A stretch of 30,891 bases of DNA. Origin: a virus. The notes under the pieces are model-generated. The model saw only the letters and a program-made list of their open reading frames with translations. It searched no databases and had not been told where the DNA came from. The DNA lies in the IMG/VR virus record IMGVR_UViG_3300017728_000061, positions 1 to 30,891 of that record; one strand, 5' to 3'. Numbering within the stretch: position 1 is the stretch's first letter; each line of letters begins with the position of its first letter. A program made the position numbers and the translations under genes. Shown here piece after piece: positions 1,983 to 30,891 of the stretch.

Positions 1983-2019
1983 ATGTAATAGTTTTATTTA
2001 TACAAAAACTAAAAAAATT

Positions 2020-2033
2020 ACGTTATACTATTA
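2020..2033 (+). promoter_or_regulatory. Late-gene element, copy 1 (ACGTTATACTATTA)
   Basis: A variant of the 14-bp element ACGTTATATAAGTA that recurs before five late units. It lies 9 bp upstream of ATG 2043, directly after a terminator, and is preceded by an A-rich run. Promoter function is inferred from its position and recurrence. Confidence 0.5.
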
Positions 2034-2463: not shown

Positions 2464-4422
2464 ATGAAAGTAAACTTTTTACAATTAAGCACCTATACAA
2501 CACCTGAAGTAAGAGAGGTAAACAACCAAGATTGGATACAATATGGAGCAGATAATAACTACTTTCAATTTTTGATTGATAGGTATAATGGGTCTGCTAC
2601 TAACAACGCTCTTATTAATGGTATTTCCCAAATGATAGTTGGACGTTATTTAGATGCTACAGACTCTAATAGAAAACCAGACGAGTATGCACAAATGAAA
2701 TCTATGATTTCTGAGGATATGCAAATGAAACTAGCTAGTGATTTAAAACTAATGGGTCAATGTGCTATCCAAGTTATTTATAGTCAAGATAGGTTAAGAA
2801 TAGCTCAAGTTGAGCACGTACCAATAGAGACTTTAAGGGCTGAAAAATGTAATGAAGAGGGAGAGATTCCAGCTTACTATTATTTTTATGATTGGGAAGA
2901 GTTCCAACAAGGTGATGAGCTAGAGAGAATACCAGTATTTGGGTCTTCTAATAGTGAAATGGAAATACTTTATATAAAACCTTATAGAGCTGGATTTAAA
3001 TATTATAGTCCTGTAGACTACCAAGGAGGAATACAATATGCTGAGCTAGAAGAGGAAATAGCTAACTATCACTTAAACAACATAATGAATGGTTTAGCAC
3101 CTTCAATGTTAATAAACTTTAATAATGGTACTCCAACTGAAGAGGAAAGAAATATTATAGAACAAAAAATTGCTGCAAAATACCAAGGGACTTCTAATGC
3201 TGGGCGTTATATACTAGCTTTTAATGACTCGGCAGACTCTGCAGCGACTATGGAGGCAGTTCAATTAAGTGATGCTCCACAACAATACGAGTTTTTATCT
3301 ACTGAGTCTATGAAAAAAATAATGGTAGCTCATAGAGTTACTAGTCCTATTTTATTTGGTATTAAGGATATGACTGGTTTTGGAAATAATGCAGAGGAAA
3401 TAGTTACAGCTAGTACTTTAATGGATAATACTGTTATAAGACCTTTTCAGCAACTTTTATTAAATGCTTTTGACGATATACTAGCTTACAATAAGATAGT
3501 CCTTAATTTATACTTTAAAACGCTCCAACCTTTAGAGTTTAACGACTTAACAAATGCTACTAATAAAGAACAAATAGAAGAGGAGACTGGACAAAAGTTT
3601 TCATTTTCAAAAGTAATTGATGGAAAAATAGCATACGAAACGATTGAGGAAGCTGAAAATAAAGCTAATGAAATAGGATGTATGGGCTATCACGAACACG
3701 AGCTAGATGGTAAAATTTATTATATGCCTTGTCAAACTCACGAAGAGTTAAAGGCTCCTTGTTGGAAAGGATATGAGCAAATAGGCACAAAAATAAAAGA
3801 TGGAAAAGAGGTTCCTAACTGCGTTCCTTTAAATGTAAACGAAGAGTTAACTAAAGCTATTTTAAGTGAGTTAGAAGGTAAGGGCGAAGACGAGGAAATA
3901 GAAGGCTACGAATTAATAGATTCAAGACCTGCTAATGACTATGACAAAATACTAAACCACTCTTTAAAATTTGCTATGGATTTAGCTACAGTACCTACTA
4001 GCACCCCCAACAAAAAAAGCTCTCAAGATACGAGTATAATAAAAGTGCGTTATAGGTATTACGGAAGTAATAATCCAGAAAGAGAATTTTGTCGTAAAAT
4101 GTGGTCAGCTAAAAAAGTTTATAGAATGGAGGACTTAGACAAAGAAAGTTCTGATAATCCTGGGTTCGGTCCTGGTGGTTCAAATTCTTATAATTTATGG
4201 CTTTACAAAGGAGGAGTTAATTGTCAACACTATTGGGAACGTAGAACATATTTAAGAAAAAACAACAAGAGAATTACAGTAGCAGAGGCTAGACGTAAAA
4301 TTGCAGCTTTAGACCCTAGTTTAAAAAAGGAAGCACAAATAGAAACTAATGTCCCTGAAGTTGCTCAAGTGGCTCAACCTAAAAATGATTGGTGGAGCTT
4401 AGACCCAAATTATAGAAAATAA
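2464..4422 (+). CDS. Portal protein with long Cys-containing C-terminal extension
   Basis: This 652-aa protein has an HK97/SPP1-like portal core over about residues 1-365, including RVTSPILFGIKDMTGFGNNA and a helical part (STLMDNTVIRPFQQLLLNAF) resembling the portal crown/stem region. It should form the dodecameric ring through which DNA is packaged and to which the tail attaches. Beyond the core are three short modules: GYHEHELDGKIYYMPC near residues 407-424, CWKGYEQIGTKIKDGKEVPN near 433-452, and an Arg/Tyr/Cys-rich tail from about 528 (REFCRKMW, NPGFGPGG, LYKGGVNCQHYWERR). I recall similar modules on other Bacteroidota phage head proteins; their function is unknown. Neighbours are a small structural gene (1 bp upstream) and a connector (4 bp downstream). 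Confidence 0.85.
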   Translation: MKVNFLQLSTYTTPEVREVNNQDWIQYGADNNYFQFLIDRYNGSATNNALINGISQMIVGRYLDATDSNRKPDEYAQMKSMISEDMQMKLASDLKLMGQCAIQVIYSQDRLRIAQVEHVPIETLRAEKCNEEGEIPAYYYFYDWEEFQQGDELERIPVFGSSNSEMEILYIKPYRAGFKYYSPVDYQGGIQYAELEEEIANYHLNNIMNGLAPSMLINFNNGTPTEEERNIIEQKIAAKYQGTSNAGRYILAFNDSADSAATMEAVQLSDAPQQYEFLSTESMKKIMVAHRVTSPILFGIKDMTGFGNNAEEIVTASTLMDNTVIRPFQQLLLNAFDDILAYNKIVLNLYFKTLQPLEFNDLTNATNKEQIEEETGQKFSFSKVIDGKIAYETIEEAENKANEIGCMGYHEHELDGKIYYMPCQTHEELKAPCWKGYEQIGTKIKDGKEVPNCVPLNVNEELTKAILSELEGKGEDEEIEGYELIDSRPANDYDKILNHSLKFAMDLATVPTSTPNKKSSQDTSIIKVRYRYYGSNNPEREFCRKMWSAKKVYRMEDLDKESSDNPGFGPGGSNSYNLWLYKGGVNCQHYWERRTYLRKNNKRITVAEARRKIAALDPSLKKEAQIETNVPEVAQVAQPKNDWWSLDPNYRK

Positions 4423-11840: not shown

Positions 11841-11867
11841 GTTTATATAATAATTTTATTATATTTG
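11838..11867 (+). promoter_or_regulatory. Bacteroidota-type host promoter for the early operon
   Basis: TTTG (11838-11841), an 18-bp spacer, then TATATTTG (11860-11867) match the Bacteroidota consensus TTTG-N(17-23)-TAnnTTTG. The expected start point is at or next to ATG 11872, four bases after the -7 box, so the mRNA would be leaderless or nearly so. The host RNA polymerase could start early transcription here. Confidence 0.75.
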
Positions 11868-13654: not shown

Positions 13655-14233
13655 ATGGAGGAGTCTATACTAGAGTTGGTAAAAAACGAAAGAGTTTGGC
13701 ATAACTACTTAAAATCGTGGGGGTGCAATATTGACACAGCTAAAGACTTAATCCAAGAAATGTATATACAAATAGATACTTATTTAAAAAAACATAAAAA
13801 TTCTATAATGTATAACGAAAAGGAGGTAAACTTTTATTTTGTCTACCTCACTTTATATAGTATGTTTAAAGATTTAAAAAGAGTTGAAAAAAGAGTTAAG
13901 ATAGTGACGTTAGAAAGTTTAGAACATTTTGCAGCAGAAGACCAATATAGTGAGAGGGACGATTACAATAACCATAAAGCTATACAAGAGTGGTTTTTAC
14001 ACGAGGACTATATAGAAATGACAAATTTAAACAACCCAAAACTAAAAGAGTATGACAAAACTAAAATGTTTAATTTCTACCAACGCAAAGTTTTTGAGGA
14101 AGTTTTTTTAAACAACAAAAGTATAAGTCAACTTAGTAGAGACACTAATATTTCTTATTACTCTTTATATAATACTGTCAAAAATATAAGACAACAAATA
14201 AAACAATTATATGAAACTAAGAATTGGGGATAA
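13655..14233 (+). CDS. Sigma-70-like RNA polymerase factor (phage-encoded)
   Basis: A 192-aa protein built like a minimal two-domain sigma factor. Residues about 14-75 resemble region 2 (CNIDTAKDLIQEMYIQI, similar to the D-x-x-Q-E-x-(F/Y) helix, then a hydrophobic/aromatic helix at 59-75). Residues about 143-186 resemble region 4, with a helix-turn-helix (KSISQLSRDTNISYYSLYNT, about 155-174) and a basic end. Between them is an acidic linker (EDQYSERDD). Similar sigma-like proteins occur in other Bacteroidota phages. It lies in the early region and is the best candidate to direct RNA polymerase to the repeated late element. A non-sigma HTH regulator is the alternative. Confidence 0.7.
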   Translation: MEESILELVKNERVWHNYLKSWGCNIDTAKDLIQEMYIQIDTYLKKHKNSIMYNEKEVNFYFVYLTLYSMFKDLKRVEKRVKIVTLESLEHFAAEDQYSERDDYNNHKAIQEWFLHEDYIEMTNLNNPKLKEYDKTKMFNFYQRKVFEEVFLNNKSISQLSRDTNISYYSLYNTVKNIRQQIKQLYETKNWG

Positions 14234-14372
14234 ACTAGAGTTCGTTTTTAAATGGACTGGTATTAAATGGCTAGTAAATAAAGTAGTAGTAGATTGGTTA
14301 GGTTACGAAAGCTGTGGCTGTGAAAAAAGACGTGATGCCTTAAACAATTTTAAAATAAATAGAAATGAATAG
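14211..14372 (+). CDS. Small CGC-motif protein
   Basis: A 53-aa basic protein overlapping the sigma-like gene by 23 bp and the next gene by 8 bp. It has an amphipathic start (LRIGDKLEFVFKWTGIKWLV) and then ESCGCEKRRDALNNF. Small phage proteins with a CGxC-x-(K/R)RR-x-x-LN end are widespread; their role is unknown. The two cysteines could bind a metal as a dimer. Confidence 0.6.
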   Translation: MKLRIGDKLEFVFKWTGIKWLVNKVVVDWLGYESCGCEKRRDALNNFKINRNE

Positions 14373-17686: not shown

Positions 17687-18109
17687 ATGAATGAATACGA
17701 CAAAATAGCAAACTTAGTAATAAGTTTAACTGAAATAGATATATTCGAGAATCGAAGGACACAAAGCCACGTAGACGCTAGAGCCTTCTTTGACTTTATA
17801 ATGAGAAAACTAAAGAACAAAACCTATACAGGAATAGCAAAATACTACCACACGAAAGGAAAGTCTGCAGATCATTCGACAATACTATATAGAACAAATA
17901 TGTTTGACGAAATAAAATGTAGAAAGCCTGAATATAAAACTTGGCTAAATATTATTAAAAATGAGATTATATCCTCAAAAGAATTATTAATAGTTTTTGA
18001 TAAAATTAAAGTCTTAAAAACTCCAGATTCTTTAGAACAAGTAAATGAACTTATAGACAAATTAGCTTACAAAGAAAAGTTATACAATACCCTAATAGAT
18101 AAAAATTAA
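17687..18109 (+). CDS. DnaA domain IV-like DNA-binding protein
   Basis: A 140-aa protein whose first half resembles the DnaA C-terminal DNA-binding domain: a helix with HVDARAFFDFIMRKL, then TYTGIAKYYHTKGKSADHST (about 47-65) where DHST (62-65) is the DnaA signature, followed by an ILYRT helix. There is no AAA+ ATPase domain. The second half is helical (LEQVNELIDKLAYKEKLY). It could bind DnaA-box-like sites to start phage replication or to interfere with host initiation. It is the last early gene before the terminase unit. Confidence 0.7.
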   Translation: MNEYDKIANLVISLTEIDIFENRRTQSHVDARAFFDFIMRKLKNKTYTGIAKYYHTKGKSADHSTILYRTNMFDEIKCRKPEYKTWLNIIKNEIISSKELLIVFDKIKVLKTPDSLEQVNELIDKLAYKEKLYNTLIDKN

Positions 18110-18115
18110 AAATTT

Positions 18116-18129
18116 ACGTTATATTAGTA
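18116..18129 (+). promoter_or_regulatory. Late-gene element, copy 2 (ACGTTATATTAGTA)
   Basis: Differs by one base from copies 3 and 4, is preceded by an A/T-rich run, and lies 5 bp before ATG 18135 of the terminase small subunit. It marks the change from replication genes to packaging genes. Confidence 0.6.
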
Positions 18130-18134
18130 GGGTG

Positions 18135-18503
18135 ATGTTACAAATGTTACACTATAAAAAAGATATAATGTTAGAAAAAACTGAAGACAATAAAAGTAAA
18201 ATGCTTAAAGCCTTAGAGGAGTATTATGGTATAGTAACAACCTCTTGTCAAAGTGTAGGTATAAGTAGAATAACTCATTATAGATGGCTTGAGGAGGACG
18301 AAGAGTATAAGGCTAAAGTCTTAGATATAAAAAATGCTGCTATAGATTTTGTAGAGTCTAAACTATTTGATTGTATAAATTCTGAAAAAGAAACTTCTAT
18401 AATATTTTATTTAAAAACTATAGGCAAGAATCGAGGCTATATACCTAGACAAGAAATAGATACTGGAGAGAATAAAGAATTTAGAATTGAAGTAATTGAG
18501 TGA
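18135..18503 (+). CDS. terS: Terminase small subunit
   Basis: A 122-aa protein (ATG 18135; GTG 18132 would add one residue, and an in-frame ATG at 18144 is a further choice). It has an N-terminal helix-turn-helix (ALEEYYGIVTTSCQSVGISR then THYRWLEEDEEY) typical of TerS DNA recognition, followed by helices (LFDCINSEKETSIIFYLKTI) for ring assembly. It would bind the phage packaging site and guide the large subunit. Its stop overlaps the terL start. It directly follows late element 2. Confidence 0.8.
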   Translation: MLQMLHYKKDIMLEKTEDNKSKMLKALEEYYGIVTTSCQSVGISRITHYRWLEEDEEYKAKVLDIKNAAIDFVESKLFDCINSEKETSIIFYLKTIGKNRGYIPRQEIDTGENKEFRIEVIE

Positions 18504-19660
18504 GAGACTTAAAAACAAACATAGTTTGGAAACACTTAGAAAAAAGCCAAAAGAAAATAATAATAGAACAAGGAGGTTCTAGGTCTGGGAAGACTTATAA
18601 TATATTGATCTGGATTATATTTGGATACAGCCTAAGAAATAAAAACAAAATAATATCTATTTGTAGAAAGACCTTTCCAGCTTTAAGGACTTCAGCTATG
18701 AGAGATTTCTTTGAAATCCTTAAAACACACGAGCTGTATAAAGAGGAAGACCACAACAAGACAAGTAGCGAATATAAAATCAATGGAAACCTAATAGAGT
18801 TTATTTCCCTGGACTCACCACAAAAAGTAAGAGGACGTAAAAGAGATTTACTTTTTATAAATGAAGCTAACGAATTGTTTTGGGAAGACTGGAACCAATT
18901 AATATTTAGAACAATAGGTCGAGTCATATTAGACTACAACCCTTCAGACGATTTTCACTGGATATATGACAAAGTCAAAGTTAGAGAAGACGCAGACTTT
19001 TTTAGAACTACTTATAAAGACAATAAGTTCCTGGAGGAATCGATAGTAAAAGAAATAGAAAGACTACAATTTACAGACGAAAACTATTGGAGGATATATG
19101 GACTTGGTGAAGTAGGACAAAGTAAAGCAACTATATTTCAATTTAGAGAAATAGATACTATACCAGAAAATGCTAAGTTCGTTTCACTCGGAATGGATTT
19201 TGGTTATACAAACGACCCCACTTGCATCTCAAAAATTTACTTACACGATACCAACCTTTATTGCGAGGAGCTATTATATAGAACTGGAATGACTAATAGA
19301 GATATACATAATGAATTACTAAACTTAGAAATAGGTAGACGTGATGAAATCTTTGCAGATTCAGCAGAACCAAAAACAATCGATGAGCTGTATAGATATG
19401 GATGGAATATAAAACCAAGTACAAAAGGTAGAGACTCTATTAATATAGGAATTGATATGTTAAAGAGATATACTATTCACGTAAAGAAAAATAGTCAAAA
19501 CGCTATAAAGGAATTTAGAAACTATAAATGGAAAGAGGACAAGAATGGAAATATTCTTAACCAGCCTGAAGACAAATGGAATCATTTTATAGATAGTCTC
19601 AGGTATGGAATTTATAACAAACTAGCTAAACCTAATTATGGAAAATACGCAATTAGATAG
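18500..19660 (+). CDS. terL: Terminase large subunit
   Basis: A 386-aa packaging motor of the Terminase_3 type. The ATPase has Walker A GGSRSGKT (25-32), Walker B with catalytic Glu LLFINEANE (117-125) and a coupling-type DYNPSD. The RNase H-like nuclease domain has D233 in GMDFGYTNDP, D287 in ADSAEP and D365 in HFIDSLRYG, the expected metal-binding acids. It cuts concatemers and pumps DNA through the portal. The start is GTG 18500, overlapping the terS stop by 4 bp. Confidence 0.93.
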   Translation: MRDLKTNIVWKHLEKSQKKIIIEQGGSRSGKTYNILIWIIFGYSLRNKNKIISICRKTFPALRTSAMRDFFEILKTHELYKEEDHNKTSSEYKINGNLIEFISLDSPQKVRGRKRDLLFINEANELFWEDWNQLIFRTIGRVILDYNPSDDFHWIYDKVKVREDADFFRTTYKDNKFLEESIVKEIERLQFTDENYWRIYGLGEVGQSKATIFQFREIDTIPENAKFVSLGMDFGYTNDPTCISKIYLHDTNLYCEELLYRTGMTNRDIHNELLNLEIGRRDEIFADSAEPKTIDELYRYGWNIKPSTKGRDSINIGIDMLKRYTIHVKKNSQNAIKEFRNYKWKEDKNGNILNQPEDKWNHFIDSLRYGIYNKLAKPNYGKYAIR

Positions 19661-20830: not shown

Positions 20831-20849
20831 GTGAAAATTTTTAAAATTA

Positions 20850-20863
20850 ACGTTATATAAGTA
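20850..20863 (+). promoter_or_regulatory. Late-gene element, copy 3 (ACGTTATATAAGTA)
   Basis: Identical to copy 4 at 27795. It lies between a terminator and ATG 20865, with one base between element and start codon, and is preceded by AAAATTTTTAAAATTA. Position just downstream of a terminator supports a promoter role. Confidence 0.7.
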
Positions 20864-27774: not shown

Positions 27775-27794
27775 AAACAAAATTATTAATTAAA

Positions 27795-27808
27795 ACGTTA
27801 TATAAGTA
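27795..27808 (+). promoter_or_regulatory. Late-gene element, copy 4 (ACGTTATATAAGTA)
   Basis: Identical to copy 3; its last A is the first base of ATG 27808. It is preceded by AAAATTATTAATTAA. It opens the protease/head operon after the tape measure. Confidence 0.7.
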
Positions 27809-28918: not shown

Positions 28919-28940
28919 AAATGCAAAATAATTTTATACT

Positions 28941-28954
28941 ACGTTAAATAGGTA
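28941..28954 (+). promoter_or_regulatory. Late-gene element, copy 5 (ACGTTAAATAGGTA)
   Basis: Two substitutions relative to copies 3 and 4; its final A is the first base of ATG 28954. It leads the scaffold/capsid operon. Confidence 0.5.
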
Positions 28955-30685: not shown

Positions 30686-30891
30686 ATGAGTACATTTATA
30701 CACACAAGTAACGATGACGTAAGAGTACAAGTATCACAAAATACTATTTCTGCTTCATTATCAATTCCAGCAGGAGACGCAGGAATCGACCAAAACGTTG
30801 CGACAGACGCACTAGTTATTTCTCTACCTCAGATTCATTCTGAAAATATAGGTTTAACATATTTATTTAGAAATACAGGAGCAGACGGTAA
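30686..30891 (+). CDS. Capsid decoration-type protein candidate (5' part, continues at base 1)
   Basis: ATG 30686 lies 11 bp after the scaffold-like stop in an A-rich leader. The frame runs through the repeated end and joins codon GCA at base 2, ending at 337. See the entry at 1-337 for the joined 139-aa product. Confidence 0.6.
   Translation, partial: MSTFIHTSNDDVRVQVSQNTISASLSIPAGDAGIDQNVATDALVISLPQIHSENIGLTYLFRNTGADG
30769..30891 (+). repeat. Terminal direct repeat, right copy
   Basis: Second copy of the 123-base overlap. Collapsing it gives a 30,768-bp circle. Confidence 0.95.

Follow-up and report, generated by a model that had tools for sequence, protein, structure and literature searches.

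The window, i.e. the whole stretch of 30,891 nucleotides that was analysed, begins and ends with the same 123 nucleotides (positions 1-123 are identical to 30769-30891). This exact terminal repeat indicates that the genome, of about 30.77 kb, is complete and either circular or circularly permuted. All main genes are located on the plus strand. The late part comprises terminase, portal, protease-like, tail, and lysis genes, among them the portal gene at 2464-4422 and the gene for the large terminase subunit at 18500-19660. An early block extends from about 11.9 to 18.1 kb and contains a helicase gene (12730), nuclease/replication genes and, at 13655..14233 on the plus strand, the open reading frame of a putative ECF-like sigma factor of 192 amino acids. 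This frame is surrounded by replication/recombination-type genes and lies upstream of the terminase genes, which agrees with its earlier assignment to the early/middle region. At the head of the block, we found one match to a host-type promoter of the Bacteroidetes: the -7 element TATATTTG with an upstream TTG box (11860..11867, plus strand), a candidate promoter resembling the -7 consensus TAHHTTTG (PMC6847099). The block from about 11.9 kb would be transcribed early. Two further genes were observed near its end: positions 17687-18109, directly before the late promoter proposed for the terminase genes, encode a DnaA domain IV-like protein (PF08299, E 1.9e-5), and the product of 17040-17684 matches the C5 cytosine methylase profile over its N-terminal 94 residues only and is possibly a partial or changed methylase. 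The nearest cultured relative, found through the portal and protease genes, is Nonlabens (Persicivirga) phage P12024L (NC_018272). As this phage infects Persicivirga/Nonlabens, the label "flavobacterial" given in the earlier note receives indirect support, and the host is presumably a flavobacterium.

In the 192-residue protein, residues 1-84 resemble region 2 and residues 129-192 region 4 of sigma factors. The linker (85-128) carries 11 acidic and 2 basic residues, which bears out the previous description of two such parts with an acidic linker. Residues D73 and R76 are located at the end of region 2.4. When the window protein was used in single-sequence searches, it reached no Pfam sigma profile and matched the PHROG sigma family weakly (E 0.037). 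The sequence signature of sigma-70 region 2 is found at the level of the family, not in the window protein alone: 28 of 46 family members match Sigma70_r2 (PF04542; best 1.4e-5), 15 of 25 match the PHROG RNA polymerase sigma family (best 8e-7), and the motif E-D-(L/I/F)-V-Q-E-M-Y is conserved and complete in region 2. The homologous protein gp35 of P12024L likewise passes the Sigma70_r2 cut-off (25.2 versus 24). A first scan identified 53 viral contigs with the sigma-like frame, and a profile search more than 490 stretches; in a scan of genome contigs, a single MAG contig matched. A tblastn search of the sigma proteins against 50,697 phage records gave no close relative and no annotated phage sigma; one unannotated gut phage matched with E 0.08. 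The end of the sigma gene is overlapped by a frame for a 53-residue cysteine-containing protein (14211-14372), a recurrent neighbor of sigma in related phages that could be its partner or regulator. Tandem sigma paralogs within one phage genome also occur (L152/L153 and L154/L155, in G024 and G025). The G024 genes lie at 18313-18807 and 18807-19382; the second has diverged strongly (profile E 1e-22), and such a second paralog could read a second promoter class.

ECF (group IV) sigma-70 factors consist only of the domains sigma2 and sigma4 joined by a linker and possess neither region 1.1 nor domain 3. The same two-domain architecture was seen in an AlphaFold2 model of the window protein, built with 55 relatives, and in the subsequent fold search, which delimited region 2 (residues 1-81), region 4 (about 101-191), and a linker of low confidence. 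The model has a mean pLDDT of 80 with values of about 87-96 over most of region 2 and supersedes a weak earlier one (pLDDT 65). Its best fold matches are SigL, SigE, SigH, and RpoE. Region 2 superposes on a SigH-type sigma factor with 2.4 Å for 75 residues, model residues 1-81 being placed on residues 26-100, and region 4 on that of E. coli sigma-E with 1.9 Å for 68 residues. The alignment score (Z about 9) is moderate for helical domains and the Foldseek E-values are modest (best 1.7e-3); nearly all leading matches are sigma factors. The earlier note had proposed comparing a predicted structure with ECF sigma factors, and these made up essentially all top matches. Because of the Sigma70_r2 matches of the family and the fit of both domains to solved ECF sigma factors, the modeled protein is very probably a two-domain (region 2 plus region 4) ECF-like sigma factor. 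We also considered a sigma-like activator of the ArpU/RinA kind, which would bind the late element described below without replacing the host sigma factor. Eight of 25 members indeed show weak matches to the PHROG family "late transcriptional activator" (best E 0.008), but the region 2 fold is complete, as is the above motif, which belongs to the helix contacting core polymerase in ECF sigma factors, and the fold matches are led by sigma factors and not by such activators. We therefore regard this alternative as very unlikely.

The late element consists of two parts, a CAAAA box and, after about 15 nt, the box CGTTATATA. Five elements were located on the plus strand of the window, all of them 13-23 nt before a start codon; the previously described sites 20850 and 27795 were recovered, and 2020, 18116, and 28941 (ACGTTAAA) were added. 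Before gene 2043, which is followed by the portal gene, a -35-like box ACAAAAA (2001..2007, with approximate ends, as it was placed relative to the G of GTTA) precedes the -10-like box ACGTTATA (2020..2027), 23 nt before the ATG; this site is conserved in the related genomes G001, G002, G003, and G005. The terminase small-subunit-like gene 18132 is preceded by the -10-like box ACGTTATA(TTAGTA) at 18116..18123. For gene 20865, the boxes are TGAAAA (20832..20837) and ACGTTATATAAGTA (20850..20863); for the protease-like gene 27808, they are ACAAAA (27777..27782) and again ACGTTATATAAGTA (27795..27808), whose G is exactly 11 nt before the ATG. Gene 28954 has TGCAAAA (28922..28928) and the variant -10-like box ACGTTAAATAGGTA (28941..28954), also with the G 11 nt before the ATG.

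Counted within the window alone, ACGTTATA shows no more than a mild enrichment (4 occurrences found versus 1.3 expected on both strands). The element is not due to chance, because it recurs at the same offset before orthologous genes of related phages: ACGTTATA precedes the corresponding late genes of five close relatives at unchanged distances, and the element precedes orthologs of 2043, 20865, 27808, and 30060 across 33, and after extension of the set 55, syntenic contigs. In an unbiased count over 18 lineages, CGTTATA was observed 34 times just upstream of ATGs, compared with 1.6 expected occurrences; the other enriched words were mostly A/T-rich start contexts. EM-based motif discovery had too little power when confined to single genomes, giving nothing clearly above shuffled sequences, whereas the comparison across orthologs succeeded. 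The element is missing before some late orthologs, for example 30060 in the window and 27808 in a GC-rich clade; thus, not every late gene has a promoter of its own. The clade in question (G006, G007, G008, G009, G011, and G013; L132-L137, L142, L143, and L164-L167) has the same gene order, a GC content of 45-48% instead of 32%, and the promoter boxes GGTTATTT, which suggests a host shift within the phage group.

The second box, C-A-A-A-A, occupies positions -20 to -16 counted from the G and almost equals the -10 box in conservation, with A frequencies of 96% at -18, 99% at -17, and 85% at -16. Promoters of ECF sigma factors combine a -10 box of the CGT/GTT type with a -35 box of the AAC type and a spacer of about 16. 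In comparison, the CGTT of the -10 box agrees, and the second box has a comparable spacing; its sequence is CAAAA and not GGAAC. Could the ACGTTATATAAGT block act in translation, as a Kozak-like context or a ribosome-binding signal, and not be a promoter? Start codons are no more than 25 nt away, and Bacteroidetes, which have no Shine-Dalgarno signals, make use of the upstream sequence context instead (PMC6847099). However, the element was found only at the heads of late units and not before most genes, its second box follows at a fixed distance of about 17 nt further upstream, genes in general have a separate A-rich start context, and the sequence varies between lineages in step with residues of the sigma protein, as detailed below. 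These observations make a translation signal highly improbable.

The position of the element relative to the start codon is well defined. At 35 of the 57 CGTTAWA sites within 6-40 nt of an ATG, the G is exactly 11 nt before it; control words showed a flat distribution with no peak at 11 nt before the ATG. The same distance occurs at 70 of 98 CG-type ortholog sites, for which the selection admitted only distances of 9-14. In the open complex of SigH, the bases G-11, T-10, and T-9, counted from the start site, make up the -10 element (PMC6411747). Given a SigH-like geometry, transcription from a site with the G 11 nt before the ATG would begin at the A of the start codon, and late mRNAs would then be leaderless at most sites. 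Among the promoters of the window, 27795 and 28941 have exactly the predicted distance (11 nt) and 20850 comes close to it (13 nt), whereas short leaders would result at 2020 and 18116. Leaderless late mRNAs would be unusual for the host, because 87% of the predicted transcripts of F. johnsoniae have leaders of more than 10 nt (PMC6847099).

The co-occurrence of sigma gene and element, which the earlier note had suggested as a check, was determined for 21 contigs of more than 20 kb that had been found via the portal or its neighbor gene and not via sigma. The sigma factor is encoded in 19 of them and thus in 19 of 19 informative ones, as the early region is cut off in G051 and G055, the two contigs without sigma. 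G055 starts after this region; G051 had been a candidate for an element without sigma and was rejected, since the contig begins just downstream of the position that sigma occupies in its relatives. In two cultured flavobacterial phages lacking sigma, none of 96 CGTTAW sites was at the 11-nt distance. Co-occurrence alone is weak evidence, because the phages are syntenic.

A closer connection emerges from 168 sites at which the element could be compared with region 2.4. In a first classing, CG was present at 95 of 99 sites of phages with R76 and at 0 of 51 with K76, figures which overstate the change in one K76 clade (G027): there, some sites do have the C, and the core contains an additional T, so that the C is relaxed and not lost. 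The element is shifted in four clades, namely to the GG/RG/AA-TTAYTT types, from G to A in G032, from C to T in G052, and to the relaxed form in G027. Of 22 conserved sigma columns, only 2, D73 and R76, are lost in all four clades; for eight other phage proteins, a comparable pattern was seen in 1 of 647 columns (Fisher p 0.003, based on four independent shifts and on columns chosen after looking). A tree-based independent-pairs test of R76 versus the element was not significant, four shifts giving too few pairs. Exceptions are G045, which combines CG with L76, and G053, which combines GG with R76. The -11 G:C pair of GTT is contacted in SigH by I91 and N92 (PMC6411747), to which L72 and D73, respectively, correspond according to the SigR/SigE alignment and the ranges of the fold alignment. 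Residues of region 2.4 (D73, R76) change together with the upstream bases of the element.

These data also bear on the question of which sigma factor reads the element. Flavobacteria possess many ECF sigma factors, and one of these might recognize it as a promoter, the phage protein acting otherwise, e.g. by modulating host sigma-A. The similarity of CGTT to known ECF -10 boxes such as the GTT of SigH (PMC6411747) would be in line with this possibility. Against it stand the presence of both DNA-reading domains in the phage protein, the occurrence of sigma in every informative syntenic contig, the co-variation of its region 2.4 with the element, and the missing element at the diagnostic spacing in sigma-less flavobacterial phages (a sample of two). 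A host ECF factor is thus an unlikely reader. The proposal that the sigma-like protein itself reads the late element has gained support from fold, conservation, co-occurrence, and co-variation, and we consider it highly likely that a phage-encoded ECF-like sigma factor, made early, directs the host core RNA polymerase to the two-box late promoters. The protein would be made early, probably from the host-type promoter at about 11860, and would bind the host core RNA polymerase. Region 4 would then read the CAAAA box and region 2 the CGTTATATA box, so that the holoenzyme is directed to the late promoters before the terminase and virion gene units. At most sites, transcription would start at the A of the ATG and yield leaderless late mRNAs. 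Holoenzyme formation, promoter activity, early-to-late timing, and the start site are predictions of this model; gene, family, sigma-like fold, bipartite element, spacing, co-occurrence, and co-variation are the computed observations behind it.

P12024L offers a comparison within a cultured phage. Its gp35 is a distant homolog of the sigma family (hhalign probability 98, E 4e-14) with about 20% identity, encoded in the early block before terminase. The record already annotates Sigma-70 region 2 and gives no promoter or function. An element of the same kind, the two-box arrangement AAAACAAA-N-CGTTAATATA, stands in front of late genes and precedes seven genes with a spacing of 10-11 nt; this phage has, however, its own -10 box CGTTAATATA and -35 box AAAACAAA.

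The opening of late genes by phage sigma factors has precedents (phiEco32, 7-11). T4 gp55 lacks region 4, depends on the sliding clamp, and uses the late promoter TATAAATA, which has a -10 box only and no -35 box. Like gp36 of phiEco32, whose promoter is the single element tAATGTAtA (PMC8948821), it switches middle/late transcription on the host core polymerase; both differ from the window phage, with its two boxes and region 4, in having single-element promoters and no region 4 function. An early-to-late switch by a phage sigma factor, as put forward in the earlier note, is supported, whereas the analogy with T4 gp55 is a loose one. The closer functional precedent is gp47 of Salmonella phage 7-11, likewise a small phage sigma factor with regions 2 and 4, which serves the bipartite late promoters GTAAtg-(16)-aCTA (PMC8948821). 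In both phages, bipartite late promoters (predicted ones in our case) stand at several unit heads, and early genes have host-type promoters. The promoter code of 7-11 is different, and start-codon-fused promoters have not been described there. As hhalign aligned only region 4 of gp47 with our family (probability 9.7), the latter looks like an independent recruitment; further independent recruitments of phage sigma factors were predicted by the authors of the 7-11 study (PMC8948821). M. tuberculosis SigH and S. coelicolor SigR share the folds of regions 2 and 4, the -10 core GTT, and the correspondence of D73 to N92, but they are cellular stress regulators of 10-16% identity whose -35 box is GGAAC instead of CAAAA.

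Our literature search, which did not cover many subscription papers, found no publication on this sigma factor or element. Judging from the searched sources, the promoter code and its variants among lineages appear to be new, as do the co-variation of residues and the placement of promoters fused to the start codon. It seems somewhat more probable than the contrary that a whole clade of Bacteroidetes phages shares a private sigma factor and start-codon-fused late promoters, with region 2.4 and promoter co-diversified into at least five codes. If so, the clade would be a natural experiment in the evolution of sigma specificity and would produce leaderless late mRNAs in hosts where such mRNAs are rare. 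Its sigma factors and promoters would form a natural series of pairs, with changes at two positions of region 2.4 following those at the upstream edge of the -10 box. Leaderless late mRNAs, if they are produced, also raise the question of how the ribosomes begin translation on them in hosts lacking Shine-Dalgarno signals. For these abundant, mostly uncultured, and largely unannotated small phages, the model offers a concrete, testable early-to-late switch, and the late-promoter pattern can be used for annotating late genes.
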